From IMG/VR virus record IMGVR_UViG_3300027821_000018, positions 1-33,940 of that record: a stretch of DNA of 33,940 bases; one strand, written 5' to 3'. The position numbers were made by a program, and so were the translations under genes. The notes under the pieces were generated by a model that did not search any database, was not told where the DNA came from, and saw only the letters and a list, made by a program, of their open reading frames with translations. Of this stretch, positions 4,194-32,550 are shown one piece after another (the stretch's first letter is position 1; each line of letters starts with the position of its first letter). Origin of the DNA: a virus.

Positions 4194-4209
4194 CGGGCGC
4201 AGCGAGCGT

Positions 4210-4507: not shown

Positions 4508-4531
4508 GACGGACTATTTTAACATTTGCCT

Positions 4532-4861: not shown

Positions 4862-4889
4862 AAAGGAGGTTCGCAGGGAAAACCTGCGA
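4832..4889. repeat. Two hairpins at the end of the HAD gene
   Basis: GAAAGCC-GTA-GGCTTTC (4832-4848) is inside the HAD gene and encodes ESRRLS. It is followed by CGCTTGGAACGTA, a variant of the tail at 3193-3206. TCGCAGG/CCTGCGA (4871-4889, loop GAAAA) follows the stop. An AAAAGGAGG between them at 4861-4869 is a strong ribosome-binding core, but it lies more than 30 bases before the next start and would be set beside it only if the second hairpin folds. Confidence 0.55.
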
Positions 4890-4901
4890 GCGTAGCGAGC
4901 A

Positions 4902-5114: not shown

Positions 5115-5115
5115 A

Positions 5116-7038: not shown

Positions 7039-7730
7039 ATGGCGTGTTGGCGATATTGTTGCTGGCGCAGCTTAATGCGTACTGGCCAGCGAAGGAGGGG
7101 AGTTGGATTAGGTATGTGGCATTTAGGGTGCTGACGTATTGGGATAGTGGGAGTAGGCAGCTTTCGGTGTTGCAGAGGTATCCACATAGCGACAATCATT
7201 TTGTGCAGATTAGATGGGTAGATAGTCCAAGTTTGGCTAGGAGTTTTAATGAGAAGTTTGTGAATAAGACTGCAGCGGGAGATGTGAGTGAGTTGGGAGA
7301 GATGCAGTTTGAGGTAAATGGTTTGGGACAGTCGCTGCTTGGGGAGGTGGGACGAGCGGATGCTAAGTTTTTGGTGATACCGCCGGAGCCGAAGTTACCG
7401 GTTGATGCGGCTGTTTGGCATAGATTGCAGCAGTGGGTAATGACTACGTATCACCAGGTGGTGGATTCGAGGAGTGGGACGGCGACGACGTGGCCGATGT
7501 TGACTAAGTTTGCAACTGTTGGACATTATGATAGATGGGGCGTATTTCCAGATGTATGGTGTACTAGTTTGGAGGAGCTGACTGTTGATGGACGGAGTCT
7601 TGCGGTTTATAATTACGCGTTTGAGCGGGGTGTTGGGCTGGTGAATTTCTGGTATGTAAATGAGTGGCCGTTTGACGCGAATCATATGGCGTGGGGCTGG
7701 GAGTATTATGCGATTGCTTGGAGCCAGTGA
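7035..7730 (+). CDS. Predicted exported Trp/Tyr-rich protein, unknown
   Basis: 231 residues from GTG, overlapping the fibre stop (GTGA). The first 15 residues (MNGVLAILLLAQLNA) look like a signal peptide with cleavage before YWPAKEG. The mature part is rich in Trp and Tyr (WSWIRYVAF, VWHRLQQWVMTTYHQVV, EWPFDANHMAWGWEYYAIAW), as in carbohydrate-contacting or extracellular proteins, but I recognise no family. It is translationally coupled to both the fibre and the next membrane protein. It could be exported by the infected cell, or the hydrophobic start could be buried in a virion. The sequence cannot decide. Confidence 0.65.
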   Translation: MNGVLAILLLAQLNAYWPAKEGSWIRYVAFRVLTYWDSGSRQLSVLQRYPHSDNHFVQIRWVDSPSLARSFNEKFVNKTAAGDVSELGEMQFEVNGLGQSLLGEVGRADAKFLVIPPEPKLPVDAAVWHRLQQWVMTTYHQVVDSRSGTATTWPMLTKFATVGHYDRWGVFPDVWCTSLEELTVDGRSLAVYNYAFERGVGLVNFWYVNEWPFDANHMAWGWEYYAIAWSQ

Positions 7731-8206
7731 GTGACGACGTTAAAGCTCCAGTGTTCAAAAGTGAATCCGCTAGTGATGATTGGCGGCTACATTTGTTTAA
7801 TCAAGAGAGGATGATTGAACAGCAGAGAGATTTGCTGGAGCTGCAGAAGCGGGTGATTGACTCGATGGAGAAGGTGGCTAGTCCAGAACGTGTGCGAGGG
7901 GTGGAAGAGGGACAGCGGAAAATGGTTGAGGCGGTGAATGCGCTGAGTGAGGAAATGAAGACGGCGAACGGACAGTTGGAGCTGGCGGTGAGCAAGCTCG
8001 CGAGCGCGTTCTGGGGTTTGATGAAGATTCCGGTGGCCGTAGTGGTGGTAGCGGCAGCGAGTTGGGCGTTTTTGTATGCGGATAAGATTGCCGAAACGAC
8101 TTGGCTGATTATGCTTGGTGTGGCGGTGTTTCCGTGGTTAGGCGATAGTATTTCAGCGATTGGAAAGATTGTGAGAGGATATCAACCAAATGGACAAAAA
8201 CAATGA
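7727..8206 (+). CDS. Coiled-coil membrane protein, possible holin or spanin
   Basis: 159 residues from GTG at 7727, overlapping the previous stop (GTGA). Residues about 22-90 are a long charged coiled coil (RMIEQQRDLLELQKRVIDSM, later VEEGQRKMVEAVNALSEEM). Two hydrophobic helices follow (IPVAVVVVAAASWAFLYA at about 105-122 and TTWLIMLGVAVFPWLGD at about 128-145) and the tail is basic. A coiled coil plus C-terminal membrane hairpin is seen in lysis regulators and in virion membrane proteins. Neither can be confirmed. The stop overlaps the next ATG as ATGA. Confidence 0.65.
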   Translation: MSDDVKAPVFKSESASDDWRLHLFNQERMIEQQRDLLELQKRVIDSMEKVASPERVRGVEEGQRKMVEAVNALSEEMKTANGQLELAVSKLASAFWGLMKIPVAVVVVAAASWAFLYADKIAETTWLIMLGVAVFPWLGDSISAIGKIVRGYQPNGQKQ

Positions 8207-9738
8207 AACAGATTATTTTACTGCTACTATTTTGTACTAGTTCTTGGGGGGCCAATAAGTATATACGGGCTGGGGCTACGGGAAACGGGAGCGGCGCGGA
8301 TTGGACGAATGCATATGCTTCGTTTGGTGCGGCGGGCATTAATGACAATGCGGGAACGGGACCACGTGGGAATACTTATTATGTTGCGGATGGCTCGTAT
8401 GGCAGCTTGACGTTGAGAAATGCGAACTCGGGAACTGCGGTGATTACGATTAAGAAGGCCACGGTAGCAGATCACGGGACGGCGACGGGGTGGAGTGATG
8501 GGTATGGTAATGGACAGGCGACATTTGGGTATACGATCGTGTCCTTGGCTTCTACTAGCTATTACACGTTTGATGGGCAAGTGAGAAATGCAGATTGGCA
8601 GACGGGCGGCACCAACCAGTACGGTTTTGCCTTTACGAACAATATGAGGCTTGATAATGCTACTGAGGCTAGGGGACCGCATGATGTTGTGTTTAGGTAT
8701 TGCGATATTAAGGGTGGTGGGAGGGATACTGGGCGTGGCGATGATGTGGTCTATTCACTTTATGGGGCGGATAATATTACGTTTCAGTTTTGCGCGTTGA
8801 GGGATTGTGATCGTTGCATTTTCTTGTTAAGGGCCAATCCCAAGAATTGGTTGATTGATTCCTGCTACATGGCCAGGAATACCAGCACGCCGGCGATTCA
8901 TTCTGAGTTGATGTCGACTACGGATGGCGCGAATATGGTGTGGAAAAATAATGTTATTGAGGACATTGAGGGGACTGCGGTCTGGGCGTTTTTGAATAAT
9001 GGAACGGCGACGGGGTGGCAGATCTATGGGAATGTGATTTACCATACGGCGGCTTATATCGCGAATGCCGGACGCCCGGCGCACAACTTCGGCATTTCCG
9101 GGGTGATCTATGTCGCCAACGATGCCAGTCAGCGCAATACCCTGAACGACCTGCAGTTTTACAACAATACGATTGCTTTCATTGTGGGGACATATTCTGG
9201 AATCCATGTCGAGGCCGGAACGAACAATCTTGTTAAGAATAATATTTGGTTTTCCTGTGTAAATACGGGTCATGCGGGAATGAGCGGGTCTTATAATTCC
9301 TATTATTCGACGCCTGGAGGGGATACCGGAAGCAATTCCATAAGTGCGACGGCGAATAATAATATGTTTGTGGATGCGGCAGCTAGAAATTTGAGGTTGT
9401 CCGGGACCAATCTTCCCGCTGCCGGAACGAATCTCGGCTCGCCGTGGAATGTGGATATTGATGGAGTGAGCAGGGGTGGTGGTGGAAGTTGGGATCGTGG
9501 GGCTTTTGAGTTTGGTGGGGCACCGGCTCCAACGCCAACGCCGACGCCTACACCAGGTCCAACGGCGACACCAACGGCTACACCGACGCCGGGTCCAACG
9601 GCAACACCAACTCCAGGTCCAACTCCGCCTCCCACTGCGCTTACAATTGGTGATATTCAGGGGTTACAGGAGGCATTGGATCAGAAGGCTGATAAGGGAC
9701 ATGTGCACTCGGTTCCTGAAACGCAGACTAGTCCTTGA
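8203..9738 (+). CDS. Beta-helix spike or depolymerase with signal peptide
   Basis: 511 residues. A clear Sec-type signal (MKQIILLLLFCTSSWG) precedes NKYIRAGATGNGSGADWTNAYASF, the usual opening of right-handed parallel beta-helix proteins of the pectate-lyase fold. Asparagine-rich rungs run to about residue 400 (DNITFQFCALRDC, NMVWKNNVIEDIE, LQFYNNTIAF, NNLVKNNIWF). DIDGVSRGGGGSWDRGAFEFGG closes the helix in the way common in bacterial exported proteins. Then comes a Pro-Thr linker of about 35 residues, and finally DIQGLQEALDQKADKGHVH, a phage tail-fibre attachment-type motif. It probably binds or cleaves a surface polysaccharide. The catalytic residues are not evident. The bacterial-style start and phage-style end suggest a chimera. 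Confidence 0.8.
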   Translation: MKQIILLLLFCTSSWGANKYIRAGATGNGSGADWTNAYASFGAAGINDNAGTGPRGNTYYVADGSYGSLTLRNANSGTAVITIKKATVADHGTATGWSDGYGNGQATFGYTIVSLASTSYYTFDGQVRNADWQTGGTNQYGFAFTNNMRLDNATEARGPHDVVFRYCDIKGGGRDTGRGDDVVYSLYGADNITFQFCALRDCDRCIFLLRANPKNWLIDSCYMARNTSTPAIHSELMSTTDGANMVWKNNVIEDIEGTAVWAFLNNGTATGWQIYGNVIYHTAAYIANAGRPAHNFGISGVIYVANDASQRNTLNDLQFYNNTIAFIVGTYSGIHVEAGTNNLVKNNIWFSCVNTGHAGMSGSYNSYYSTPGGDTGSNSISATANNNMFVDAAARNLRLSGTNLPAAGTNLGSPWNVDIDGVSRGGGGSWDRGAFEFGGAPAPTPTPTPTPGPTATPTATPTPGPTATPTPGPTPPPTALTIGDIQGLQEALDQKADKGHVHSVPETQTSP

Positions 9739-9740
9739 AT

Positions 9741-10349
9741 ATGAGTGAGGTGTTATTAAAAATTGGTGGAGTGCCGGTGTATCAGGACGCTGATGGGAGC
9801 GTGCATTGGATTGGGGAAATGACGATCGATGCCGATGGGTGTTCGAGGGCGTATGGTCCGGAGGGGACCAAGCCGCTGGACTATTTGGCGAACGCGGGAT
9901 ATCCAGGGAATTGGTGGGGCGTGGTGACAGATAATAGCGGCGAACCATATGTACAGAGTGGGTCTGATGGACCGCATAAGGCACCGTGGCCGGGATATTA
10001 TGTTAGCACGACGGCGTATTTGGTGAGTGGATATGATAAGTATGATGTGAGGAGGTATGTTGACAGTGAGAAGGTGCCGTTTGCGGTGGTACCCGGCAGT
10101 GTACGAACCGCGATCCCACCGAAGTTTATGGGGTGCAAGGTGATTGTGACGGATATGAAGACTGGAGTGGAATTGGATTGCGCGTGTTGTGATGTAGGAC
10201 CGAGTAATCACCTTGGCGAAGCCAGTATGGCAGCGGCTAAGTTTTTTGGGTTGAATCCAGATCCGAAAAGTGGGGGGTCGAGTGATCGGACGAGATTTCA
10301 CTATCGTATGTGGCCGGGAGTGCGGTCGATTGATTATCCATTGCAGTGA
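9741..10349 (+). CDS. GH75 chitosanase-like cell-wall hydrolase, endolysin candidate
   Basis: 202 residues from ATG at 9741. MTIDADGCSRAYGPEG, PLDYLANAGYPGNWWG, GYYVSTTAYL, RRYVDSEKVPFAVVPG and DVGPSNHLGEASMAAAKFFG in this order fit the glycoside hydrolase 75 chitosanase type, a beta-barrel fold. The fungal enzymes carry a similar D.......GEAS segment with an Asp/Glu pair, here Asp151 and Glu160. In a phage this enzyme probably cuts peptidoglycan or another aminosugar polymer, either for lysis or as part of the virion, since it follows the spike by two bases. No signal peptide is seen, so it would need a holin for release. Family call from motif memory. Substrate unknown. Confidence 0.65.
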   Translation: MSEVLLKIGGVPVYQDADGSVHWIGEMTIDADGCSRAYGPEGTKPLDYLANAGYPGNWWGVVTDNSGEPYVQSGSDGPHKAPWPGYYVSTTAYLVSGYDKYDVRRYVDSEKVPFAVVPGSVRTAIPPKFMGCKVIVTDMKTGVELDCACCDVGPSNHLGEASMAAAKFFGLNPDPKSGGSSDRTRFHYRMWPGVRSIDYPLQ

Positions 10350-10702
10350 TTGCGATTATTTTGATTTTTATGCTGAATAGGTTTGGCGGGATTGAGATTG
10401 ATACGGATAAGGGCCGGGTGAGGTTTTTTCAGGGGAATAAGGTGGGTGAGGAGACAACGTATGAGTCGAGGTTGATGGTGACTAGAGAACATAGCTTTTT
10501 GACGCCGAGTGGAGTGGAATTTAGGGTACAGCAGTTGCCGATAAAGGTGGTGCATGACGTGGGGAGGCGGATTAATAGTGGAGATTATAGGCTGAAGATT
10601 ATTGATGCTGACGATGCGGTTGTGAAAAGGTTACCGCACGTGGCAGGTTTTGCAAAGAGTGATGAGGAAATGACATTTTATGGAGAAAGGACTGAAAGAT
10701 GA
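10346..10702 (+). CDS. Small protein with hydrophobic N-terminus
   Basis: 118 residues from GTG, overlapping the previous stop (GTGA). A short hydrophobic start (MIAIILIFML) could be a membrane anchor or signal. The rest is a mixed alpha/beta-looking domain: GGIEIDTDKGRVRFFQGNKV, then YESRLMVTREHSFLTPSGVEF. No known family. Its place after the hydrolase and before a coiled-coil membrane protein fits a lysis accessory role, without further support. Confidence 0.6.
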   Translation: MIAIILIFMLNRFGGIEIDTDKGRVRFFQGNKVGEETTYESRLMVTREHSFLTPSGVEFRVQQLPIKVVHDVGRRINSGDYRLKIIDADDAVVKRLPHVAGFAKSDEEMTFYGERTER

Positions 10703-10895
10703 TGTTGAAGAGGAGGGAGTGGTGACGGATGTTTTGCATCTGTACGAGGAAGTGAGTGACCTCAAACAGGAGATTTATGAATTGAAAGCGAGGGTGGAGA
10801 AGATGACGAGAGTATGGGAATGGGTTGGTATGGGAGGTTATTTTGTATTTTCGATTTGGCTGATGTGGACGCTGGGATGGTTGATTGCGTTTTGA
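10680..10895 (+). CDS. Coiled-coil protein with C-terminal membrane helix
   Basis: 71 residues, overlapping the previous gene by 23 bases. An acidic N-terminus leads into a heptad-like helix (VLHLYEEVSDLKQEIYELKARVEKM, about residues 18-43) and a Trp-rich membrane helix at the end (MGGYFVFSIWLMWTLGWLIAF). Holin or inner-membrane spanin are both possible. Ends two bases before the large terminase. Confidence 0.6.
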   Translation: MEKGLKDDVEEEGVVTDVLHLYEEVSDLKQEIYELKARVEKMTRVWEWVGMGGYFVFSIWLMWTLGWLIAF

Positions 10896-10896
10896 T

Positions 10897-12513
10897 ATGG
10901 ACGAAACGAGTGAAGTGAGCATTAGGGTGGCGGGGCTGAAGAATAAACGTGATTCACTCGCGCGGATTAAACTGCTTAAGCAGAGTCATGGGATTGATTT
11001 TTATAGACCGCATTGGAAGCAGGACAAGTTTCATTTGGCGAATGTTACGGGACGATATTGTAGGACGGGGAATAGAGGGGGGAAAACTAAGTGTGGTGCG
11101 GCGGAGGATGTGGCGTGGTTGATTGGAGGGAGGACGTGGTACAAGAATAGCTTTGACGTATTGGATGGGAACGGCGTGACTACACGCAGTCATGTTGGAA
11201 CGGCCTCCCATCCATACGTCACTTTGGGAATTCCTAAGTATCCGGTGAAAGGATTGCTAATTGTTAACGATTGGGATAAGGGAACGGAGATATTTACTAA
11301 TCGTGCGGGGAGCTATGAGAACTGGGGAGAATTGTTTAAGCTTATACCGCGGGAGGCGCTGGGCAAACCACACGTGAGTCGTGGGGGACATATTGATCAG
11401 ATTCCAGTTAAGAGGATGAGTGAGTTTGGGGGAGGGGAGAGTGTGTTGTATATCGATACGGTGGAGAGTTATAAACATGCTAATATGAGTGCGGAGTCTA
11501 GTTATTGGGACTTTATACATATTGATGAACCGTGTCCGCGGAATATGTTTGTGGCACATAAGCGGGGGTTGGTGGACCGGAATGGAAAGTTCTGGATGAA
11601 CTGTACGCCGATTAGCGAAATGTGGATCAACGATGAGTTTGTGCCGCCGAAGAAGACGGTGGTTGAGAGTGCGGAGGACGGAATTACATTTAATAAGTTA
11701 GAGGGAGGCGGCGCCTCCCGGTTTATGATTACGTGGAGCATGTTCGATAACCCATACAATAGCCGGGAGGCGATTGAGGAGTTTGAGGCAGGCTTGACGA
11801 GAGAGGAGCGGGAGTGCAGGTTGCATGGATTGCCGTTGAATCTTGCTGGGCTGGTGTATAAGGAGTTTATTTATGATTTGCACGTTCTTTGCGATGTGCC
11901 GAAAGGTTGGGAGGACTTTGGCAGCCCACCTAAGGGCTATACGATACGGGTGTGGTTCGACTACCACGTACGATTGCCCCAGGCGGTGCTGTTTGTTGCG
12001 ACAGACCCGCAAGGGAGGGTGTTTGTGTATGATGAGCTGTATGACGAGAATTTGATTGAGCCGGTAGCACGGGGGATTAATGAGCGGTTAGAAGGTCGTT
12101 TTGTGGCGGACATGGAGATCGATCCATTTGCGGTGATTGAGCATCCAGTTACGGATGAAAGCATTCTGGATGAGTTGAGTAAGTATGGTTTGTTCTTTGA
12201 GCGGGCGACTAAAGATCGGGCGGTGGGTATTAATAAGGTAAGGGAGAGGTTGGCGGAGCGCGATGCGTTTGGAATGCCGACTATTTATTTTAGTCCGAGG
12301 GTTACGGAGGTGCTGTTTGAGTTCACACATTACGTATTTGATCCAAAGACTAATAAGCCCATTGATATGTTTGATCATCAGATGGAGAACTTGTATCGTG
12401 CGGTGTTAAATGGGTTGCAGTACATTGATCCAAATTGGGAGGCACCTACATATAAACCATTTACTATTAAGATGGACCAGAACCTTTTGAGCTTGAATCC
12501 TAGTTACGAGTAA
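10897..12513 (+). CDS. terL: Terminase large subunit
   Basis: 538 residues from ATG at 10897 (a TTG four codons earlier overlaps the previous gene and is less likely). ATPase part: Walker A GNRGGKT at 58-64 and Walker B FIHIDE at 206-211. Nuclease part: VWFDYHVRLPQAVLF with Asp355, a central acidic segment DMEIDPFAVIEHPV, and DHQMENLYRAV with Asp493. These fit the packaging motor that cuts concatemeric DNA and drives it through the portal. Length is normal. The protein starts with an R/K-rich segment and YRPHWKQDKFH, a typical adenine-contact region before the ATPase. The stop overlaps the next small gene by one base (TAATG). Confidence 0.93.
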   Translation: MDETSEVSIRVAGLKNKRDSLARIKLLKQSHGIDFYRPHWKQDKFHLANVTGRYCRTGNRGGKTKCGAAEDVAWLIGGRTWYKNSFDVLDGNGVTTRSHVGTASHPYVTLGIPKYPVKGLLIVNDWDKGTEIFTNRAGSYENWGELFKLIPREALGKPHVSRGGHIDQIPVKRMSEFGGGESVLYIDTVESYKHANMSAESSYWDFIHIDEPCPRNMFVAHKRGLVDRNGKFWMNCTPISEMWINDEFVPPKKTVVESAEDGITFNKLEGGGASRFMITWSMFDNPYNSREAIEEFEAGLTREERECRLHGLPLNLAGLVYKEFIYDLHVLCDVPKGWEDFGSPPKGYTIRVWFDYHVRLPQAVLFVATDPQGRVFVYDELYDENLIEPVARGINERLEGRFVADMEIDPFAVIEHPVTDESILDELSKYGLFFERATKDRAVGINKVRERLAERDAFGMPTIYFSPRVTEVLFEFTHYVFDPKTNKPIDMFDHQMENLYRAVLNGLQYIDPNWEAPTYKPFTIKMDQNLLSLNPSYE

Positions 12514-12677
12514 TGAATCCAAACGAACTTTTAGCTAAAATGTTTACTCCACAAGGTGGCGCACCGCAAATGCAGGGCCCACCACCAGTACAAGGACCAC
12601 CGGTCCCGCAAGGGCCGCCACCGCCACCGACGAAAAGGAAGAAGGGAAAGTCTAAGCCGCCGAAAGGTAAGAAATGA
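12513..12677 (+). CDS. Small proline/lysine-rich protein
   Basis: 54 residues, below common length cut-offs. It starts at the A of the terminase stop (TAATG) and its stop overlaps the portal start (ATGA), so it fills the gap exactly. MNPNELLAKMFTPQGG could be a short helix. Then comes a PPPVQGPPVPQGPPPPP stretch and a basic tail KRKKGKSKPPKGKK. It may bind DNA or the portal-terminase interface. This is inference from place and charge only. Confidence 0.65.
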   Translation: MNPNELLAKMFTPQGGAPQMQGPPPVQGPPVPQGPPPPPTKRKKGKSKPPKGKK

Positions 12678-14599
12678 CCGAGGACACCATTAAGGAGCTG
12701 ACGCGTGAGGATGGGGAGTTGAGTGACTTCCACGAAAACTTGCTGCGGCACGTGAAGGATCTGGTCAAGATGAGCAGATCCAAAATGTCAAAGTATTATG
12801 ATGATTGGGACAATCAGCAATGCGTGTATAAGGGCGAGCGGATGCCGGACAAGGATGATGTCGAGCAGGACTTGAGGGATAAGCCGGTAAAAATGGTGGT
12901 GCCGAATACGTTTGCGCAGGTGATGACGTTCACGAGCTTTTTGTTCCTACTTTATACCCAAAATCGTACGTTTTATGAGCTGATTCCTACCGGTGATGAG
13001 GATTACGGCACCAAACTTAGGGATTTGGAGAAGGTGCTGGAGCGGGATACGAGGGCAAATGCGTGGAATGCGATGCTGTTTCAGCATCTGTTGGATACGA
13101 GTCGGTTCGGAACGGGTGTGCTGGAGTGTTGTTGGACTAGGAAAATGAGCCGGATATATGTGCCGCAGCAGCCAGTGGTGCAGACGCTGGGCGGGGTTGA
13201 GGTGACGGTGAGGCCGGGTAGCGATTGGCAAGAGTTTGTGAAGTATGAGGGCAATCTGGTGAGGCCAATTAGTCCGTATAGATGGTTTCCAGATACGAGG
13301 TTTCCAATAGTGGATTTTCAAAGGGGGGAGTTCTGCGCGGCGGAGGAGGAGTACAGCAAGGCGGCGCTGGAGGACTTGGAGGAGAGCGGGGAGGTTGCGG
13401 GGATAGAATTTGTGAGGCCGTTGCCGAAGCAGCTGGATAAACATCGGGGAGGGCCGACGAGGTTCAGTGGGGATTTGATACCGAGTGCTAGGGCGGACAA
13501 AAGTAGTGGATTTCCACAAGGGGCGAGTAAGGCTAGTGGGAGCGTGTTGGTTACGAAGGTGCAGGTTTGGATTGTGCCAGCGAAGTTCGAGTTGAGTAGT
13601 GGTAAGAAGCTAGGACCGGAAGAGTTCCCGGTTTTGTACCATATATGGTATGCTAACGATAATCGGGTGATACGAGTTGAGCCTGCGTATTGGTGGCATA
13701 ATGAATTCGGATTTACGCTGGCACAATTCACACCTGACATGAACCAGACGGTGGCTATGGGGCTAGCGGATCTGATTTATCGGTTGCAAGACGTTATTAC
13801 GTGGTTGATTAACGCGCGGGTGACGGACGTGAGGCGGAATTTGAGGGGTCGGAACATTGTAAATCCTGCGTTTATTGATACGAAGAGCCTGGACAGTGAG
13901 GGTGACATTTATATGCGCAAGGGAACTAATCCCACGATGATGGATAAGGCAATTCGTCCGTTGGATGTGAATGATGTTACGCGAGGGCACTTTGCGGATG
14001 CGGATACGCTGGGCAAGATAATGCAGTTGGTGACGGGTGTTAATGATAATGCAATGGGGCAATACAACTCCGGTCGGCGGAGCGCGTCAGAGGCACGAGT
14101 CGTGACTGCTGGCGCGTCCGGCCGTATGAAAATGCACGCGCAGATGATTTGGGAAACGAGTTTGGGACGATTGGGGAGGCTGATGGTGAGCAATCTGAGG
14201 CAGAGCCTTAGTCTGGAAAGCTTTCAGTCGGTGGTTGGTGAGGATCCGATGATACAGATGAGGTATCAGGCGTTTAAGGGGACGCCGGAGGAGGTCATTG
14301 GGGGAGGCGATTACTTTACGTTCGATTCGACGCTGCAGAGCGAGCGGAGTTTTATTGCACAGAGTTTGCAGGAGTTGCTTGTGGCGGTGATTAATAACCC
14401 GCAGGCTGCGCAAATGTTAGACATTGATCCGCGGAGTATGTTGAATGAGATTCAGTATCTGAGGGGAGCGGGGAGTGTGAGTAGGTTTAGTCTGCAAAAA
14501 CAAGTGGCGAGCGGGGCGGCACCGCCGTTGCCGCAGGTTATGCCACAACCGGGCGCGCAGGGCGCTCCACAACCACAACCTCCACAGGCGGCGGCGTGA
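12674..14599 (+). CDS. Portal protein
   Basis: 641 residues. The order after the large terminase and before the scaffold and capsid genes, the length, and stretches such as RSKMSKYYDDWDNQQCVYKG, KMVVPNTFAQVMTFTSFLF, LLDTSRFGTGVLECCW, GLADLIYRLQDVITWLINARVTDVRR and RSASEARVVTAGASGRMK are those of podovirus-type portal proteins. It forms the twelve-subunit ring at the capsid vertex through which DNA passes. The last 35 residues are a Pro/Gln/Ala-rich tail. Starts as ATGA over the small basic protein, ends as GTGA over the next gene. Confidence 0.88.
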   Translation: MTEDTIKELTREDGELSDFHENLLRHVKDLVKMSRSKMSKYYDDWDNQQCVYKGERMPDKDDVEQDLRDKPVKMVVPNTFAQVMTFTSFLFLLYTQNRTFYELIPTGDEDYGTKLRDLEKVLERDTRANAWNAMLFQHLLDTSRFGTGVLECCWTRKMSRIYVPQQPVVQTLGGVEVTVRPGSDWQEFVKYEGNLVRPISPYRWFPDTRFPIVDFQRGEFCAAEEEYSKAALEDLEESGEVAGIEFVRPLPKQLDKHRGGPTRFSGDLIPSARADKSSGFPQGASKASGSVLVTKVQVWIVPAKFELSSGKKLGPEEFPVLYHIWYANDNRVIRVEPAYWWHNEFGFTLAQFTPDMNQTVAMGLADLIYRLQDVITWLINARVTDVRRNLRGRNIVNPAFIDTKSLDSEGDIYMRKGTNPTMMDKAIRPLDVNDVTRGHFADADTLGKIMQLVTGVNDNAMGQYNSGRRSASEARVVTAGASGRMKMHAQMIWETSLGRLGRLMVSNLRQSLSLESFQSVVGEDPMIQMRYQAFKGTPEEVIGGGDYFTFDSTLQSERSFIAQSLQELLVAVINNPQAAQMLDIDPRSMLNEIQYLRGAGSVSRFSLQKQVASGAAPPLPQVMPQPGAQGAPQPQPPQAAA

Positions 14600-15825: not shown

Positions 15826-17217
15826 ATGCCGTTAGGCTTAGTTAGTTCAGAACAGATTGACGACTATTGGAGTCAAAATACGAGGAGAAGGATTTTCTAC
15901 TCGTATCCCAATGGTACAGCACCGCTCACTGGGCTGTTGTCGATGATGGAGAGTGAGGATACACCGCAGCCGGTGTTTGGTTGGAATGAGGAGAGGTGGC
16001 AGGAAACGAGTACGATTACTGCTGCGAATCCCACGGGAGGCACGAACAAAGATGGTGCGTTCACGGCGACAGGAGGCACAACTCCTGCTGGCGATACGAA
16101 CGGTAAGTTTTTGCTGGCACAGTGGGGAACGATGAGGGTGTATGTCGCGAATGCGGCTAACTTCCAGATTGATGATGTTATTAAGATATTTGGAGTTGGG
16201 ACGAGCGCGACAGGGCCGGCAGCTACGGGTACGGCGGATCTGACTGGCAGGGTTACTGCTGTTGGAACGGGGTACTTGGAGTTGATGGCGGTAAGTTCCT
16301 GGAGCAATGTGCTCAATACAGCGGCTGCAAGTAATGGTAAAAGTGCGGTGTTGATTGGCACGGCGTATGCAGAGGCTGCGAGGTCAAGGAGTGGTGGGAT
16401 TGTGTTTCCATACGAAATCAAGAACAATACTCAGATCTTTAAGACGCCCTACGAACTCAGTAGGACGGCGCTGAAGGAGCCGCTGAAGTATGACAAGACT
16501 GGCGCGTATAAGGATATGAGCAAGTCTAATGGCATTAAGCATCTGGCTAGCATTGAACGCGCTGCGTTCTTTGGCGAGAATGCGTATACTACGGAGGTTG
16601 ATCCGGATACGGGTCAGACGGTGCCGCGGAGGTATACGGGAGGACTGAGGTGGTTCTTGGATCAGTGGGAGTTGGGAACCGCGTATGGTCAGCCTAATGT
16701 GAGTGCGGTGGTTGATTGGAGGACGGCGAGCAATAAGCGGGTGATTAAGTGCGGAGGCACGACGATTACAAAGGCGGATTTTAATCTGCTAATGGCGCGG
16801 CTGTTCGAAAGGACAAACAATACGAGCTGGGATAAGCTTGGGTTGTGTGGTCCGGAGTACCTGGCCAAGATCGCGGATATGTTTGAAAGGCAAATCCAGT
16901 TCACATCGTTACGCGATGATGGCTTCGAAGGGTTTAACTTCAAGCTGGTGCGGCACATGAGCAACTCGGGCGAAGTGTTTTATAAACAACATCCGCTGTT
17001 TACGAGTGCTGAGATGCGGAACTCGTGCTTCTATGTGGATCTGGGGTATGTGGGGTATAGGCCGCTGAGTGATAGTGATACGGATATACAGCCGATGATT
17101 CAACTGCCCGACGCGGATAAGAGGAAGGACCAGTGGCTCACTGAGTGTGGTTTCGAGTGGAGATTCCCCGAAGCGAATATGTACGTGGAGAACCTGGGTG
17201 GAGTTACGCTGACGTAA
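15826..17217 (+). CDS. Major capsid protein
   Basis: 463 residues with the best ribosome-binding site in this part (GGTGGAGGTAGAGAG before ATG), as expected for the most abundant virion protein. N-terminal arm MPLGLVSSEQIDDYWSQNTRR, a Gly/Thr/Ala-rich middle (about 70-140), and a C-terminal half with GGLRWFLDQWELGTAYG, FNLLMARLFERTNNTSWDKLGLCGPEYLAKI and FEWRFPEANMYVENLGG. Layout and C-terminal pattern resemble HK97-fold capsid proteins of the DUF5309/SU10-like group. That subgroup is uncertain, but gene position makes the capsid call firm. Confidence 0.85.
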   Translation: MPLGLVSSEQIDDYWSQNTRRRIFYSYPNGTAPLTGLLSMMESEDTPQPVFGWNEERWQETSTITAANPTGGTNKDGAFTATGGTTPAGDTNGKFLLAQWGTMRVYVANAANFQIDDVIKIFGVGTSATGPAATGTADLTGRVTAVGTGYLELMAVSSWSNVLNTAAASNGKSAVLIGTAYAEAARSRSGGIVFPYEIKNNTQIFKTPYELSRTALKEPLKYDKTGAYKDMSKSNGIKHLASIERAAFFGENAYTTEVDPDTGQTVPRRYTGGLRWFLDQWELGTAYGQPNVSAVVDWRTASNKRVIKCGGTTITKADFNLLMARLFERTNNTSWDKLGLCGPEYLAKIADMFERQIQFTSLRDDGFEGFNFKLVRHMSNSGEVFYKQHPLFTSAEMRNSCFYVDLGYVGYRPLSDSDTDIQPMIQLPDADKRKDQWLTECGFEWRFPEANMYVENLGGVTLT

Positions 17218-23047: not shown

Positions 23048-23539
23048 ATGGCAATGATGCAAGAACCACCTCCAGATTGGGGGCAGTTGTTAATACAAAT
23101 ACTTAGACAAAATCAACAGAGGCGACAACAACAGCCGCAAGAGGAACAACAACCACAAGGGCAAGGTCAGCAGCCTTGGCCGCAGTTTCAGCAGCGACAA
23201 CAGTTGCCGGTTGAGGAGTTACAGAAGCTTTTGCAGGGCCAACTGGATTTGGGGAATAGAAGTCTTGATATGTATTCTCCGATGCAGCAGGCGAAAGCGG
23301 CTAGGTATTTGCAAGATCCGGTTGGTGCGGCAATATCGAATCGTGACGCGGAAATGGCTGGTCATAGTGGACTTGACTGGTTTAAGCAGACTAATAAGAT
23401 TCCTGAGCTGACGCCTGAGGCCGCGTTGGGTATGCAGGGGAATAGCGCGGCTAATCAGTGGGCGCAACTGGGAGCGTTTAAGGGCGTTAGTCCCGACGAC
23501 GTGAAGAGGATGACTATTAACCGTAGATTTCCTGCGTAA
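23048..23539 (+). CDS. Gln-rich hypothetical protein
   Basis: 163 residues, preceded by AGAAAGGA. Residues about 18-60 are glutamine-rich (RQNQQRRQQQPQEEQQPQGQ). The rest is helical (LPVEELQKLLQGQLDLGNRS, later MQQAKAARYL). Shares one base with the next start (TAATG). Unknown role. Probably a partner of the giant protein. Confidence 0.55.
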   Translation: MAMMQEPPPDWGQLLIQILRQNQQRRQQQPQEEQQPQGQGQQPWPQFQQRQQLPVEELQKLLQGQLDLGNRSLDMYSPMQQAKAARYLQDPVGAAISNRDAEMAGHSGLDWFKQTNKIPELTPEAALGMQGNSAANQWAQLGAFKGVSPDDVKRMTINRRFPA

Positions 23540-26500
23540 TGCCTGGGTTGCCGTATGGTGATGTACAGGAGCTGTACCAGATCCTGAAGGATAATGGTCA
23601 GGTCACAAACTCGCTGTCCGATTGGAGTCAGGAGCAAAATGCGAGGACGGATTCCGATTTGTTCTCGGAGGGCGTTAATGATAACCTGATAAAGCGAACG
23701 AGTTATGGCATTGACCAGCTGTTGGAGAAGTCGGGGCTGCCGGAGTTGACGGGGCGAGCGGGCGAGTATGTTGGAGGGCTGATTGGCAACCCAGAATATG
23801 GGCGGGCGGTTGGTCATGGATTCCCGCGGATGGTGGTGGATGTGGCGCCTAGTATCGCTGGAGCGGCGCTGGCACCATTGACGGGAGGCTTGAGTGCGTA
23901 TGCGGGAACTGCGGCGACGGCGGGGTTGATGGGTGCGGGAACGTATCAAAGGACGGGTAGTATTCCAGCAGGTTTTCTTGCTGGAGGATTGGGACTTGTG
24001 CTGCCCAAGGTTGGACAACTTGGTACGGAGCTGGGGTGGAGAGCGGCCGGTGTGCCGTTGATTAAAGGCGCGGCGTACGAGGCGACGGAGGCGCCACTTG
24101 CGGCGTTGGCGGCAAGTCAGGGGATTAAACCCGCGGTTGAGATTGCCGAGCGGGTTCCAACGAATCTTTGGCAGGGTGCGGCGGGGCTGACTGGTGCTAA
24201 TGTTGCGATGTACGGCGCGCAGCAGGTGGGTGCGGCGGGCGAGGCCGCGATAACGGGACAGCCGTACCATATTTCCCCCACGAGTGCGCTGCTCGATATA
24301 GCTAGCACGGGTCCGTTCATGGCGCTGCACTTAACCAAGGGCGGTCGAGCAGCGCTCGGGGGGAGAACCAGCAGAGAGCGTGCGGCGGCACTTACGGATT
24401 CGATAGATATTGCGAAGGCGGCGCAGGAGGCGGTTGGACGCACAGAGGAGACACAGAATAAAGCACCTGATGACGTTTATCCTGAAACTGATGACTTGGC
24501 GACAGCAGAGAATGTTACGACCAACGCTACGATTAACGACACGAGGGCGACTCAGGCTGGGTTGAAAGAGGAGGGGACGACGCTGGGCGATGAGCAACGT
24601 GCGAGGGTTGCGGAGAAAGATCAGGAGCTAGGGCAAACGCAAGGTGTGCAGCCGGGAAATGTGTTTGGGGCGCAGATGGACGAAAACACGACTAGGCGCA
24701 ATGTGACTGGGAAATTGCTCGATGAGGCGTCAGGGCATAGATTTTTGCAGGTTGATGATAATCCGGCGAACGGTGACTTGGCTGGGAAGGTCATTGGGTG
24801 GAATAGTGCAATGGATCCAAAGGATTTACCGGAGGGGCAGTTCGCGGTGCCGGAGGGCTATCATGCGGAGTACGGCGTGAGGGATAACGGGACGCTGGAC
24901 GTTGATCGGGCGCTGGACAATGTCAACAAGGCGGTTGATGTCGCGAAGACCGATGGAGATTTGAGTGGTGCGGTATATGCGATTAATGGCGTAAAGGCGA
25001 AGTATAACCAACCGCTGGTTGACGACGTTGAGATTAGTAACCGCATTGAAACGGGTGAAGCCGGCGATCCACGGGCGGCGATTCGCGCGATAGTTAACGA
25101 GACTAGGAATCTGGTTAGGGCGGATAATGAGGCGACGGCCGCGAAAGCCGCGACGCCTCCGGCCGAGCCACCTGTTACTGGGGCCACGACTGCTTCTGTG
25201 CCGGTGATGATTACCAAGCGGATGGAGGCTGACTTGCTGGCGAAGGGATTTAGTCAGGACCAGATCAATAAGATGACTCCAGCGGAGGCGCATGGTAACT
25301 TGGCGCCTGCGCCTACGGAGACTGCGGCGCCTCCTGAAGGTGTTGTCAAGCCTGCGGGGATAACACCGCCTACTGAGCCGACGGGGACTGTAACTGGCGA
25401 TATCATGACGAAGCTGCAAGGCTCGTTTAAAGACCCGGCAGCGGCGAAGATTTTCGCGTTACAGAAGGAGCATCGGAATAGACCAAAGTTTTTCCGTGAT
25501 AGGTTGTTGAATTTGATTGAGACTGATCCGGCGGTGGCGGCTAAACTGGGGCAGTTCGGGGATGTGGAGGCACTGAAGGCGGAGTTACGGACGAAGGTGA
25601 TTCCGGGGTTGGGAGATACTTTCCGTGAAATTGATCAGTTGCCGCGAGGAGACTCGGCGGAGGGCCGACCGATAACGCAAATACTCAAAGAGCAGTTGAT
25701 AAAGATCGCACACGGCACGCCGCATGTAGAGGATGCGGTAAAGTTGATGGATTATGTTACGATGGGCCGGAGTGCGATGCTGAAGAAATATGGCATTACG
25801 AAACGTGACCTGTCCGAGTGGATTAGGGAGCCGCACGTGGCGGATTGGGCGGGACAGTTGAGAGATGTGCTGGGGCAGAAACAGCAGTCTGCGGTAGATT
25901 ATGCATCGAAGCCGTTTGTACCAATTAATACGACTGAGAAAGCACTTGTTAGTTCGGTGGGTAATAATGGGCGAAGTGCGTTGAGGTATTTGCAGACGCA
26001 GTCGTCGGAGAAGTATGCAAATTTGGCGAGGCATTTTGAGAAGTATCTACCGCTGCTCGATAAGGTTAGGGTAAGGTATTCAGATAGTCAAGAACCTGCA
26101 GAGGCGAACCTTTATGGAGCGGGTGATGTTGAAATTGTGATGCCTGGGCATACAATGGAATCAAAGACGGGGTTTGATAATTCATTGATGCATGAGATGC
26201 TACACGCATTGACGTTACGGCAGATACATCAGCCTTGGAACTCGGAATTTAATGATGCGTTGACGAGATTGCGTGAGCATGTGGCTAAGCAGATGCCAGA
26301 GGACATTAGAGGGGTTGCGCAGCGAGCAATTGAGACAAAGTGGCTTGAGAGACGTGCGAGGGGTGAGACTAATTGGAGCGAGCTGTATCCAAGTGGGGAG
26401 GCGCAGTCGGTAAAGGATAAGGTTTATGCGTTGTTGGATAACCATGAGTTTATTACGCAGGCGTTCACTAGCGGATTCATAAATGACTTGACGAAGATTA

Positions 26501-29500
26501 GGGGTATTGGAGGCGGAACTGCACGTGATAGCTTTATAAAGTGGACTGGGAAGTTACTCAATAAGGACTTGAGTAGTTCTGCGCTAAGTGAGTTGTGGAA
26601 TGTTACGGGTAAGACGGTGAAGTTGAATAACTATGTAGCGACGGTACAGAGTTATACGCAAAGGTATTTCGAGAATCAGGGGATGACGCCTGACCAGGCG
26701 AATGCGCTATCGGGACATGTGGCGAAGATCGCGAGGATGGGGGGAAGCAGGCAGTTTGACGCGAATTATGTGGTTAATGAGGTGATGAAGGCGCCGAGTT
26801 TTTCGGCGGAGACTAAAAATGCGGCTAACGAGTTACAGGACTTTTTAGCTAAGGCTGTTGGTGGCGATGACAGTGCATTTGCGAAGTTTTTGGCGGTGAG
26901 TGAGGCCGCGTCTCGAGAGACTGGAATTGGGACTCTTGGTAGTGACAGTTTGCATAAGTATGTGAAGGATGTTTTGACTGGTGACCGGGCGGTTGGCGAT
27001 GAGTTGAAAATACTTGATCCCGCTGTGACGAATTATGTTTATTCGGCTGCGAGGGACGTGAGGAATGTGCTAGGTGCGGTGAATGGGATGCTAGACCCTA
27101 AGGTTGCGCCGTATGTTGAGGGTGCGGAGAAGTTTAATAGAGATCATATTGGAACGTTGCTGGGGCGCGCGGGTAGTATAATGGAGCATGAAGCGGCGTT
27201 TGTGGAGGCTGAGAAGACGTGGAAGGCGATGTCTGCGGTGTCGCCGGAGGGCATGGTTGCGCGGTATGCGGCAGATGTGCCGGCGAATGATGCGAGGGTT
27301 GAGATTGCACAAGCGGCGACGGAGCGGGATCCCACTAAACAACGATTGAATATTTTTGAGCGGTTTCTTGGCAATGGGGCGTTTTTGGCGCGGATTGGAG
27401 GACGTGCGACGAAAGAGCTGGTTACTAAGATCAATCAGCTGGGTCCGAATAAAAAGGAGATGTTGTTGGCAGCGGAGCAGGCGATGGGACTGAATCTTGG
27501 CGATAAGTCCAAATTTGGGCCGGCGAGGTTTACGGCGGAGCAGCTGAAACATTACGAGGATCCAACGATACGCAAGCCTGCGAGCAAGTGGATGTTTGAG
27601 AATATTAGGGTTGCGGGAGAGACTGATGGCGCAGCGGTGAAGTTGGATCGGAGTTCGTCGGAGGTGCAAGCGCTGTTGAGGACGGTGCCACCAAGTAAGT
27701 GGGACGCGATTGAGGGATTGGTTGATAAGGGAATTGCGATGAACAAGGTGCAGGCCGCGTCTATACTTGCAAAGCAGACTAATATTGCGGCGCTGAATGG
27801 TGCGGCTTTGCTTTCGAGGTTTACGGGCAAGAATGCCGAATTCAATTTTCAGACGATGACCGAGCTTTTGCGGTTGGCGGGAGCCGATCCAGCAGACCCG
27901 GCGGTTGCCGCAAGGTTACAGGAGATGCAGGCGCGACTAGGTCCTGAAGCGTATAAAAAGATGGCGGATTACGCGGTGCGGTCGAATCAAATGTTGCAGA
28001 TGCAAGCTGAGTTCAATGAGGCCAATCCCGCATGGGTTACGACTACTAGATATGGCACGTGGGATTTGCACTACGCGAAAGGCGGGCAGGTATTGTTTGA
28101 TCGCGTAAATAGTGAGAAGGAAGGGCGTGTGTTGGCGGCGGAACGGGGCGGACGTGTAGTGTCGCTGGCTAGAAACAATCAAAACGAGGATATCCCGACG
28201 ACCTTTAAAGTGCAGAATTTGGATAGATTACGTGAGCTGGAAGAGGCGCAGTTCAAGACGATGGAGGAGGTGTTGGGGGCGGGCACGGACGAGATGAAGG
28301 AGTTGAGGGCGAGTTCGATCGTAGACGCGATGGAAGCGGATCTGAGGTTGGAGGGCGAGAAACGAGGGTTGACGACAAACATTCCCAAAAAGTTCAAACG
28401 CGGCGAAGAAGAGGTGGATTTTGTACGAAATCAACTGTCGTGGTTGGATCGCGGGTCTAGTTTCTGGACGCGTGAACAGTTGAGGGCGCAAGCGCGGGCG
28501 TGGCTGAAAGATCCAGAGATTGTGGCGAGGCCTGATATACAAGGACGCTTGAAGAAGCTGGTTGAGAATGTAATGCAGAGAGACCCGGGACTGGCGACGG
28601 AGATGCGGAGGTTCGCTGCGTCGTGGTTTATGGGCTTTAGTCCGGCGAGTGCGATGGCAAACGCTACGCAGATCATGACGAGAATTGCGAGTGAGTTTAC
28701 GGCGCGGACGGGCAATCCGTTGAAGTCATGGGGCATGGTCATGGATTCGATCAAGACGTTGGCGCAGGAGACGACTAAGAAGCCGGCGATGGGCAGTGAT
28801 GAAGAGTGGGTTAAGTCACAGATGCTCAAGGATGATACTGGCGCGATCTATTATGAGGAAGATCCAACGAATCGGGGTCTAGAGGATCTGCAGAATGTTA
28901 TGGCGCGGAAGGGTGTGCAGACGTTGGGGCAAAAGCTGAGTCAACTGCACTCTGGGCAAATGGACAAAATTTTGTTCTTTTTCCGTATGGTGGAGAAGAT
29001 GAACAACTTCGTAGCAACGAGGGCGTCGTTCAAGCTGTTCAGGGAGCAAGGTATGGATAGGCAACAGGCGTACGACGAGGCGAAGCTGCTGAATCAGTTT
29101 GTGAATGATTCTGGGGGTAAAGCGGCGAGGTCGATTGGTATGTTTGCTGGCCGCGATGACTTCAGCAAGAACGCGGCGTTGATGAGTTCGACGCTACAGA
29201 CGTATTTTATTGGATCGACACGTCAGATGGCGACCTGGCTGAAGTATGGAAATGATTTTAATCCGAAGGTTACACCGAGCGAGAAGTATTATGGTAAGTT
29301 GGCTTTCGCGCAGTTGATGGCTACGCAGTTTGCGCTGGCTGGGACGATGGGACTGCCGTTCGTGTCGGGAGCGTTGGGCGTGATTAATCAGGTATTCCCA
29401 GAGCTTGAGGTGCACAAGAATATTAAGAAGTGGACCAATAAGCTGTTTACTGGCGACGAGGAGAGCGGGAATGTGCTGTCGGATACCGCGGCGATCGGGA

Positions 29501-30321
29501 TACCGAGCATGTTTGGGTGGGACTCACAGAGCCGGCTGAGTATGGGGAATATACCTGGTGCAAACGAGTATAATGGTTTTGACGCAGGAGGGATTATTGG
29601 ACCTTTGCCGAGTGTTGCAGTTAATGCGGTGAAGGGCGTTAGGAAAATGATGCAGGGCGACTATCTCGATGGCGCGACACAGATTTTGCCGCCGTTCCTT
29701 AAGAAGACGATAAAGATGGTTGCCGACGGTGGGAAGATACGCGATTACAACGATAAACCAATCATTACGCCAACGGGTGGAGAGATGGCGGGTATGGTGC
29801 TGGGATTCAATCCGAAAAGACTTAGGGACTTTAACGATAGTCAGCGTATCTCGTCTCAGGCGAAGAAGATGGAGGACGAACAGACGAAGCGCAAGAACGG
29901 TGAGTTGGCTGATAATATGGCGAATGGAAGATTTGATGTGGTGAATCAGTTTTTGCTGGAACAAAAGAAGAAAGATCCTGCGTTTGATTTGAGGAAGCGC
30001 GCGCAGACTATCGTAGATCAGACGACTGAAATAGTACTTCCTAGAGACTTGAGAAGGGGTGGCGCTGGTGAGGAGTATGCTAAGGCGTTGCGGATAATGC
30101 ATTATAAACCATCTGCCGAGATGCCGACGGAGATGGAGCGGCAACAGTTGAAGATGCGGCTTTTGATGAACTTGGGCGTGAGGCCAGACCCGGCGAGTTC
30201 TAGGACGAGTGTAAATAAGGCCGTGCTGATGGACAGTCTGCGGGAACAGAACCCTGACGCGAGCCGCTATGAGTTGCAGCGGATGGCGGAGCGGTTGCAG
30301 CGGCGGATGCCTGGTGGCTAG
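23539..30321 (+). CDS. Giant 2260-residue virion protein with zincin protease domain
   Basis: By far the largest gene. Features in order: charged N-terminus; a Gly/Ala-rich hydrophobic stretch (about 98-155) that could insert in membranes; a low-complexity Ala/Pro/Thr region with the short motif LLAKGFSQDQINKMTPAEAH (about 560); helical stretches; a metalloprotease-like site HEMLH (His885, Glu886, His889) with a likely third ligand in NHEFITQAF (Glu970); long Ala/Glu/Lys helices; then LSQLHSGQMDKILFFFRMVEKM and a hydrophobic segment near 1925-1955; and a basic helical C-terminus. Size, place at the end of the structural block, and mixture of domains fit the large polyvalent or internal virion proteins injected with DNA by short-tailed phages. 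The protease could process virion proteins or act in the host. No lysozyme domain was recognised. Confidence 0.8.
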   Translation: MPGLPYGDVQELYQILKDNGQVTNSLSDWSQEQNARTDSDLFSEGVNDNLIKRTSYGIDQLLEKSGLPELTGRAGEYVGGLIGNPEYGRAVGHGFPRMVVDVAPSIAGAALAPLTGGLSAYAGTAATAGLMGAGTYQRTGSIPAGFLAGGLGLVLPKVGQLGTELGWRAAGVPLIKGAAYEATEAPLAALAASQGIKPAVEIAERVPTNLWQGAAGLTGANVAMYGAQQVGAAGEAAITGQPYHISPTSALLDIASTGPFMALHLTKGGRAALGGRTSRERAAALTDSIDIAKAAQEAVGRTEETQNKAPDDVYPETDDLATAENVTTNATINDTRATQAGLKEEGTTLGDEQRARVAEKDQELGQTQGVQPGNVFGAQMDENTTRRNVTGKLLDEASGHRFLQVDDNPANGDLAGKVIGWNSAMDPKDLPEGQFAVPEGYHAEYGVRDNGTLDVDRALDNVNKAVDVAKTDGDLSGAVYAINGVKAKYNQPLVDDVEISNRIETGEAGDPRAAIRAIVNETRNLVRADNEATAAKAATPPAEPPVTGATTASVPVMITKRMEADLLAKGFSQDQINKMTPAEAHGNLAPAPTETAAPPEGVVKPAGITPPTEPTGTVTGDIMTKLQGSFKDPAAAKIFALQKEHRNRPKFFRDRLLNLIETDPAVAAKLGQFGDVEALKAELRTKVIPGLGDTFREIDQLPRGDSAEGRPITQILKEQLIKIAHGTPHVEDAVKLMDYVTMGRSAMLKKYGITKRDLSEWIREPHVADWAGQLRDVLGQKQQSAVDYASKPFVPINTTEKALVSSVGNNGRSALRYLQTQSSEKYANLARHFEKYLPLLDKVRVRYSDSQEPAEANLYGAGDVEIVMPGHTMESKTGFDNSLMHEMLHALTLRQIHQPWNSEFNDALTRLREHVAKQMPEDIRGVAQRAIETKWLERRARGETNWSELYPSGEAQSVKDKVYALLDNHEFITQAFTSGFINDLTKIRGIGGGTARDSFIKWTGKLLNKDLSSSALSELWNVTGKTVKLNNYVATVQSYTQRYFENQGMTPDQANALSGHVAKIARMGGSRQFDANYVVNEVMKAPSFSAETKNAANELQDFLAKAVGGDDSAFAKFLAVSEAASRETGIGTLGSDSLHKYVKDVLTGDRAVGDELKILDPAVTNYVYSAARDVRNVLGAVNGMLDPKVAPYVEGAEKFNRDHIGTLLGRAGSIMEHEAAFVEAEKTWKAMSAVSPEGMVARYAADVPANDARVEIAQAATERDPTKQRLNIFERFLGNGAFLARIGGRATKELVTKINQLGPNKKEMLLAAEQAMGLNLGDKSKFGPARFTAEQLKHYEDPTIRKPASKWMFENIRVAGETDGAAVKLDRSSSEVQALLRTVPPSKWDAIEGLVDKGIAMNKVQAASILAKQTNIAALNGAALLSRFTGKNAEFNFQTMTELLRLAGADPADPAVAARLQEMQARLGPEAYKKMADYAVRSNQMLQMQAEFNEANPAWVTTTRYGTWDLHYAKGGQVLFDRVNSEKEGRVLAAERGGRVVSLARNNQNEDIPTTFKVQNLDRLRELEEAQFKTMEEVLGAGTDEMKELRASSIVDAMEADLRLEGEKRGLTTNIPKKFKRGEEEVDFVRNQLSWLDRGSSFWTREQLRAQARAWLKDPEIVARPDIQGRLKKLVENVMQRDPGLATEMRRFAASWFMGFSPASAMANATQIMTRIASEFTARTGNPLKSWGMVMDSIKTLAQETTKKPAMGSDEEWVKSQMLKDDTGAIYYEEDPTNRGLEDLQNVMARKGVQTLGQKLSQLHSGQMDKILFFFRMVEKMNNFVATRASFKLFREQGMDRQQAYDEAKLLNQFVNDSGGKAARSIGMFAGRDDFSKNAALMSSTLQTYFIGSTRQMATWLKYGNDFNPKVTPSEKYYGKLAFAQLMATQFALAGTMGLPFVSGALGVINQVFPELEVHKNIKKWTNKLFTGDEESGNVLSDTAAIGIPSMFGWDSQSRLSMGNIPGANEYNGFDAGGIIGPLPSVAVNAVKGVRKMMQGDYLDGATQILPPFLKKTIKMVADGGKIRDYNDKPIITPTGGEMAGMVLGFNPKRLRDFNDSQRISSQAKKMEDEQTKRKNGELADNMANGRFDVVNQFLLEQKKKDPAFDLRKRAQTIVDQTTEIVLPRDLRRGGAGEEYAKALRIMHYKPSAEMPTEMERQQLKMRLLMNLGVRPDPASSRTSVNKAVLMDSLREQNPDASRYELQRMAERLQRRMPGG

Positions 30322-31568: not shown

Positions 31569-31723
31569 ATCTGCTCCTTGGCAAGGTTTATGAAGAGAGC
31601 AACAGCGAAAAAGCGGTCGGGGCTGTGTTGCGCGTCACGTTCAAGTTGTTTGCGGATCTGCGATATTTTTAGTTGGCGGAGGGTTTGAACGATGTCGTCG
31701 ATGTCTTGGTCTTTGTTGTTCAT
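31565..31723 (-). CDS. 52-residue charged protein, hidden small gene
   Basis: Between the ligase and the helicase. Start ATG at 31723 overlaps the ligase stop (ATGA) and its stop overlaps the helicase start (GTGA), so it fits the operon pattern exactly. The product starts MNNKDQDIDDIVQTLRQLKI and ends with FFAVALFINLAKEQM: an acidic/basic helix followed by a hydrophobic helix. Unknown function. A helicase loader or partner is conceivable from position only. Confidence 0.7.
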   Translation of the reverse strand: MNNKDQDIDDIVQTLRQLKISQIRKQLERDAQHSPDRFFAVALFINLAKEQM

Positions 31724-32550
31724 TCTAGTATAGCGAGGGAAACCGGATTAAACGGTATTTTGTTTTCGGTTAAGCAAAGATACTTGACTTTCAGTAATTT
31801 ACCAATGGGCGGGTGTTCTAGGTAATGTGTCGCTTCATTGTCGGAAAGTCCTGTCCCTACCTTGAAGTGGGTGCCGCTGGGCGTTTGACAGACGAAGGCG
31901 CCGACCATGCCGGTGCGTTTGCCTATACCTTCCTCGATGTCGACGATACGGAATTCAGCGTCCTGGTAGTCTTTGCGTTTTAACAAATGCCACGTTCGAT
32001 TATTCTTGTCAGATATGCCGCGGCCCGCAGAAGGTGTAGTATATGGGCAGTCTCCCAGTCGGTACATGAGGCCCTCATAACCCATTTCCACCCACTTAGC
32101 GTAGAAGTAATTAACGCTGTCGGTGTCCGCTACACGGTGAGTTTCTACAACTTTTACTTTGTGGAGGTGCTGTGTATCAGTGAGGATACTGGCGGGGGCG
32201 GTGAAGCGGTTGATGAAGTTACGGCGGTAATCGACGACGTCAAAGACGTGAAATTCAACTAGGTGTGTGTCGTCGCGGAGATCGTGGCGGTTGGTGGCAA
32301 TGGCGCCGTTGATGCGTTGGAGTGGCCATCCGTGGACGTACAGCTCGCCATCGAGGATGACGGAGTCGCTGAAGATCTCACGTAGGGGCTTAGAGATGTG
32401 CGATAGGATGTCCTTACTCCAGGGGATTTCATCGCGAGACTGGAAGTAGCCCGCCTGGTATAGGGCACGGACTCCGTTGAGTTTGGGCTGGACATGACAG
32501 GGGAACGTTATACGCTTGGGCACATATAGGTGCGCGAGCATGGGCTTCAT
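31720..32550 (-). CDS. ATP-dependent DNA ligase
   Basis: 276 residues. Motif I KLNGVR (Lys23, the AMP-carrying lysine; Asn replaces the usual Asp at position 25), LDGEL at 66-70, FHVFDVV at 100-106, YEGLMYR at 158-164, and motif V LLKRKDY (Lys191, Lys193). The OB-fold domain follows (DAEFRIVDIEEGIGKRTGMVGAF). Seals nicks in replication and repair. Short, as in phage ligases. Overlaps both neighbours by ATGA. Confidence 0.9.
   Translation of the reverse strand: MKPMLAHLYVPKRITFPCHVQPKLNGVRALYQAGYFQSRDEIPWSKDILSHISKPLREIFSDSVILDGELYVHGWPLQRINGAIATNRHDLRDDTHLVEFHVFDVVDYRRNFINRFTAPASILTDTQHLHKVKVVETHRVADTDSVNYFYAKWVEMGYEGLMYRLGDCPYTTPSAGRGISDKNNRTWHLLKRKDYQDAEFRIVDIEEGIGKRTGMVGAFVCQTPSGTHFKVGTGLSDNEATHYLEHPPIGKLLKVKYLCLTENKIPFNPVSLAILE

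Follow-up and report, generated by a model that had tools for sequence, protein, structure and literature searches.

A 2260-residue, probably ejected phage protein with a likely zincin domain related to those of PhiM1, phiKMV-type and N4 ejected proteins

Introduction

The window analysed here, a viral contig of 33,940 nucleotides taken as a whole (IMG/VR record IMGVR_UViG_3300027821_000018), encodes a 2260-residue protein that probably represents a new family of large, in all probability ejected, polyvalent-type phage proteins with a real zincin domain, a kind of protein already known from the polyvalent proteins of Iyer et al. (2017; PMC5512222). Sequence alignment and a predicted structure both indicate that this zincin domain, in which the third ligand is likely to be Glu970, is real and conserved. 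In this way an unclassified giant phage protein is tied to domains that have been solved by cryo-EM in the ejected proteins of PhiM1, phiKMV-type phages and N4.

Genome context and architecture of the giant protein

The contig is regarded as podovirus-like because it carries a terminase gene, an SU10-type portal gene and an SU10_MCP capsid gene, the terminase gene lying in the same module as the other two (Table 1). It is probably incomplete, several related contigs measuring 46-48 kb against its 33.9 kb. The structural module ends with the giant gene, after which the coding strand switches. Its open reading frame is intact and begins with an ATG that overlaps the preceding gene (23048-23539) as TAATG, and the end of the convergent DUF3987 gene overlaps it by 4 bases. 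Like genes for polyvalent proteins, it is encoded next to virion genes (portal, capsid and terminase), and both this position and its homology point to a virion protein. Elsewhere in the window, a tail-fibre-like gene with numerous PHROG tail matches lies at 5080-7038, and the product of the gene at 8203-9738 has a match to a Phage tail repeat-like family (PF12789) below the cut-off at residues 481-505. An ATP-dependent DNA ligase gene is found on the minus strand at 31720-32550; its PHROG match begins at position 221 of 634, and the gene is possibly a short form.

Table 1. Positions in the window of the genes, protein regions and site residues discussed in the text
Feature	Position	Strand	Basis
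Portal gene	12674..14599	+	Pfam SU10_portal, 2.5e-10
Major capsid gene	15826..17217	+	Pfam SU10_MCP, 4.5e-18
Giant gene, predicted internal virion (ejection) protein, 2260 aa	23539..30321	+	Open frame; related contigs encode homologues of 1805-2592 aa
Constant N-terminal part, residues 1-260	23539..24318	+	35-39% identity to five homologues; present too in distant L046 and L048
G/A-rich hydrophobic stretch, residues 94-165	23818..24033	+	Kyte-Doolittle scan
Variable region, residues 531-800	25129..25938	+	15-23% identity with large gaps to every homologue except the closest, L032 (39%); other domains mid-protein in relatives
Zincin domain as modelled, residues 796-1045	25924..26673	+	Alignment A4, AlphaFold model, structural neighbours, profile match to 8vb2
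HEMLH, residues 885-889	26191..26205	+	Both His and the Glu invariant across the family and seven phiKMV-type proteins
Thr892 of the HExxHxxT signature	26212..26214	+	Invariant in family and phiKMV-type sets
Glu970, predicted third zinc ligand	26446..26448	+	Invariant; in second conserved helix of model
Constant C-terminal part, residues about 1541-2253	28159..30297	+	34-41% identity over 1541-2200 in six homologues; about 22-24% in the distant L046 and L048
Hydrophobic, highly conserved stretch, residues 1921-1950	29299..29388	+	Hydropathy maximum 1.71; numerous invariant columns

Pfam and PHROG scans of the 2260-residue protein gave zero matches, including none to an RNA polymerase family, and a T7-like RNA polymerase domain, such as lies upstream of the zincin in N4-type proteins, was not found by these scans. 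A tblastn search with the whole protein against 50,697 phage records found nothing, the zincin stretch alone gave no match among viral contigs, and one scan of genome contigs (GTDB species) yielded no C-terminal relative. The family was opened with portal and capsid queries, which led to related contigs encoding giant homologues (Table 1). The two terminal parts of the protein are constant throughout this family, and its middle varies. The variable part of the L033 homologue contains an ART-PolyVal-like domain (E 0.0048, below the cut-off) and that of L040 a GNAT domain scoring 26.9 against a cut-off of 27. The distant homologues in L046 (2917-10854) and L048 (3361-10908) have mainly the two terminal parts in common with the window protein; mid-protein they carry an LPD23 domain (above the cut-off) together with two different HExxH motifs, one reading HELQH or HEIQH and the other HEIGH or HEVGH. 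In the window protein itself the zincin is the only recognisable domain. Membrane-like stretches had been predicted near both ends, and they do exist, near residues 95-160 and 1921-1950, but are modest and G/A-rich, with Kyte-Doolittle maxima of about 1.3-1.7; the C-terminal one sits where the protein is best conserved.

Several further observations were made among these giant proteins. A linker motif, KGFSQDQINKMTPAEA, encoded at window positions 25216-25308 (residues ~560-590), is also present in L032 and L033, and a loose pattern of it is found at 0.01 occurrences per shuffled protein. A match of L001 and L036 to window residues 534-605 was considered as a sign of a shared giant protein and rejected, as it covers the short linker motif only. 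L036 belongs to another virus, and its 4039-residue protein (2022-14141) matches helicase models (AAA_34, ResIII) and has HEWFH at residue 2167. The 3563-residue protein of L061 (2347-13038) contains two zincin copies, of which the first has a degenerate site and stands beside an intact one, and a 4715-residue open frame in L062 (record G025) has three partial zincin matches.

A conserved zincin domain

The HEMLH at residues 885-889, singled out in the original prediction as metalloprotease-like, is present and is the sole HExxH of the open reading frame, about 0.02 being expected by chance from composition. His885, Glu886, His889, Thr892 and Glu970 are shared without exception by the six zincin-bearing proteins in alignment A4 (the window protein among them), at an identity to the window protein of 24-29% across the domain. 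Only 14 columns of about 250 residues are invariant among the six, and these include the two histidines, the HExxH glutamate, Thr892 and Glu970. A seventh zincin-bearing member, in the record of L042, reads HEMGHGLT...LLDNKEM. The invariance of the five site residues in six of six proteins at such low identity, together with this seventh member, argues that the motif is not a chance occurrence. Glu970, which had been put forward as the third ligand 81 residues after His889, is at the right position and is invariant in the zincin-bearing members of the family.

Structure prediction and comparison with zincins, which had been proposed as the check on this site, were run on residues 796-1045. The AlphaFold model built from the alignment (pLDDT 73, pTM 0.72) follows the order H29-45, E48-53, E60-64, E68-74, H81-101 and then H161-171 and H173-182 (model numbering), and contains the zincin core of an N-terminal helix, a three-stranded sheet and two C-terminal helices as compared with PMC5512222. 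In this zincin-like model the HExxH lies in helix 81-101 and Glu970 in helix 173-182. The top of the VIA-align list consists of zincins, with anthrax lethal factor best (Z 5.6), followed by other metallopeptidases. Each of these Z values is modest, and the weight was therefore placed on the consistency of the list, together with the BFVD search, in which the named matches ranking highest are virion proteins, namely large polyvalent-associated, internal core and internal virion proteins and a virion-encapsulated RNA polymerase. Foldseek of the domain model against the PDB gave no E-value below 0.001. The topology is thus that of a zincin, and the neighbours are zincins and phage ejection or polyvalent proteins. 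His885, His889 and Glu970 are accordingly candidates for zinc binding, and the domain is a putative peptidase.

Relationship to ejected proteins of podoviruses

The domain profile matches the tetrameric ejection protein of PhiM1 (8vb2, E 7e-8) and the internal virion protein 9sfn (E 4e-5). With weak E-values, tblastn of the homologous domains led to internal virion proteins of phiKMV-type phages, in which HExxHxxT and an aligned glutamate were found in seven of the seven proteins inspected. Comparison of the family set with the phiKMV-type set by hhalign gave a probability of 99, and an HMM combining them recovered phiKMV gp37, which had been held out, at 4.7e-23, with a weaker match to N4 gp50 located exactly at HELVHAST. 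Links to N4 were also obtained from the phiKMV-type profile, which matches the N4 virion RNA polymerase (11fw, E 0.009), and from PHROG 2206 (virion RNA polymerase), which matches phiKMV gp37 across the zincin domain at 2.5e-17. The N4 domain has been named a zincin-like MPTase (Iyer et al. 2017; PMC5512222), and the HExxH of the N4 virion RNA polymerase has been noted in the N4 structure paper (PMC12633501). The original prediction of a zincin site with Glu970 as candidate third ligand, in a large short-tailed-phage protein of the polyvalent type, agrees with the fold prediction, with the structural neighbours and with the matches by profile to ejected proteins of PhiM1, phiKMV and N4.

In PhiM1, residues 268-528 have been labelled endolysin/exotransglycosidase-like (PMC11440229), and PHROG 342, the class of phiKMV gp37, bears the name 'internal virion protein with endolysin domain'. 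However, residues 268-528 of 8vb2 contain LHEAAHAKT and the glutamate motif, and the endolysin-like label is therefore probably wrong; the domain is most likely a zincin of the kind described here. A limited literature search found no published statement that the PhiM1 label is wrong, and the solved ejection proteins would gain a re-annotation of this domain as a zincin. The HERLH at residue 559 of T7 gp16 was considered as a further relative, showed no profile similarity and was treated as a chance occurrence. Where the constant parts were compared with T7 gp16, N4 C2 and phiKMV-type C-termini, hhalign of the C-terminal part gave nothing significant, and the C-terminal AlphaFold model was too poor for a structural search.

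Presence and absence of the zincin module

The zincin is cleanly absent from the homologue in L035, which aligns to the window protein at residues 6-530 and 1036-2252 with nothing between. The same is seen in the phiKMV-type lineage, where LKA1 gp48 (L073 14283-17294) aligns to phiKMV gp37 (L070 11567-15580) at residues 108-227 and 597-1335 with 38-44% identity and lacks residues 228-596, which hold the zincin. As LKA1 is a cultured phage, a virion can be viable without the module. All complete copies of the domain, in the family as in the phiKMV-type set, keep the general-base glutamate and the third ligand. This pattern of presence and absence, together with the kept catalytic glutamate, fits a plain scaffold or an obligatory maturation protease less well than it fits an accessory enzyme.

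Proposed function and alternative explanations

The reading that we favour, with moderate confidence, is that of a giant, ejected, polyvalent-type podovirus virion protein whose accessory mid-protein zincin most likely acts on a host protein after ejection. The most likely task of the constant N- and C-terminal parts would be to have the protein packaged in the head and, at infection, carried through the tail into the cell envelope or cytoplasm. In the zincin, His885, His889 and Glu970 would bind zinc and Glu886 would activate water, and once ejected the domain would most likely cut a host protein in the envelope or cytoplasm. We infer the packaging, the ejection, the zinc binding and the proteolysis, as well as the time and target of the cleavage. 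A host target is favoured over cutting of the ejected chain itself, and this choice is left as a preference.

Such self-processing, in the head or after ejection, would free the middle or C-terminal domains, and we regard it as a less likely but serious alternative. The chain is very long and multidomain, self-processing has been proposed for polyvalent proteins by Iyer et al., and DdrB of phage P1 is cleaved before packaging (PMC5512222). However, the N4 virion RNA polymerase, which has a related domain, is packaged unprocessed (PMC5512222), and homologues without the zincin keep the same constant ends. It is rather improbable that the zincin fold is structural or degenerate, serving the ejection complex for packing or as an interface, with its catalysis unused. 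The PhiM1 domain is indeed part of the pre-ejection assembly, where it lines the DNA groove (PMC11440229), and a degenerate copy does occur in L061, though beside an intact one; yet a pure scaffold needs neither the general-base glutamate nor the third ligand, both of which are kept in complete domains.

Some metallopeptidases cut peptidoglycan peptides, and a domain that opens the cell wall would be in keeping with the PHROG 342 name and with the endolysin/exotransglycosidase-like label of the PhiM1 paper. We nevertheless consider peptidoglycan hydrolysis very unlikely: the window protein, PP90 gp48, phiKMV gp37 and KPV811 gp11 have no SLT, lysozyme or endolysin match in Pfam, sequence and fold point to zincins, and T7 gp16, which has a true transglycosylase, lacks such a domain by HMM. 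The original prediction had allowed for either an injected protease or a maturation protease of the virion. A zincin in a polyvalent-type protein was indeed found, but an obligatory role in processing other head proteins during assembly, for which the location of the gene within the structural module would speak, seems barely credible, since L035 and the cultured phage LKA1 keep the rest of the protein with the module cleanly absent.

A broader proposal, put forward tentatively, is that a mobile zincin family occurs in at least three ejected-protein backbones (the window family, phiKMV/PhiM1 and N4), in two of which close relatives lack it, that it would act as an injected protease cutting a host protein such as an envelope or defence factor, and that the PhiM1/phiKMV 'endolysin' label is wrong. 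The role of a protease injected with the DNA becomes testable in this way, as maps have been deposited and the cultured phages phiKMV and LKA1 differ by the module.

Comparison with known systems

The closest likeness is to PhiM1 gp48 (8vb2) and the phiKMV gp37 class (PHROG 342), which share a homologous zincin with HExxHxxT and a downstream glutamate and are internal, ejected podovirus proteins, as is predicted for the window protein, encoded by the largest gene of the ejection set. However, members of the phiKMV gp37 class are shorter (1232-1337 aa in PP90, phiKMV and KPV811, against 2260 aa), and the C-terminal part in both systems has no detectable relation to that of the window protein. 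In the C1 domain of N4 gp50 (PMC5512222, PMC12633501), HELVHAST and LNEFMAWGL fit the signature, the HMM matches at the right place, and the zincin is again followed by a large helical C-terminal part, whereas the window protein has no RNA polymerase match and C2 no detectable relation to it. Caulobacter phage Kuura gp21 and Pseudomonas phage PaP2 gp25 are encoded near the place before the strand switch, in phages with a related portal, and the C-terminus of Kuura gp21 is weakly similar to the family; in contrast, these proteins have 1358 and 1849 aa respectively and no HExxH, and the similarity of PaP2 gp25 is not significant. Kuura gp21 (L054 18477-22553) matches PHROG 16165, whose 1849 positions equal the length of PaP2 gp25, at 2.8e-7, and a chain from PaP2 gp25 through Kuura gp21 to the window family is possible. 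Compared with the polyvalent proteins that carry a zincin-like MPTase (Iyer et al. 2017; PMC5512222), the window protein differs in that the zincin alone is recognisable, without any Pfam match, but it is likewise very large and encoded among virion genes, with its zincin mid-protein, and its relatives carry ART-, GNAT- and LPD23-like domains.
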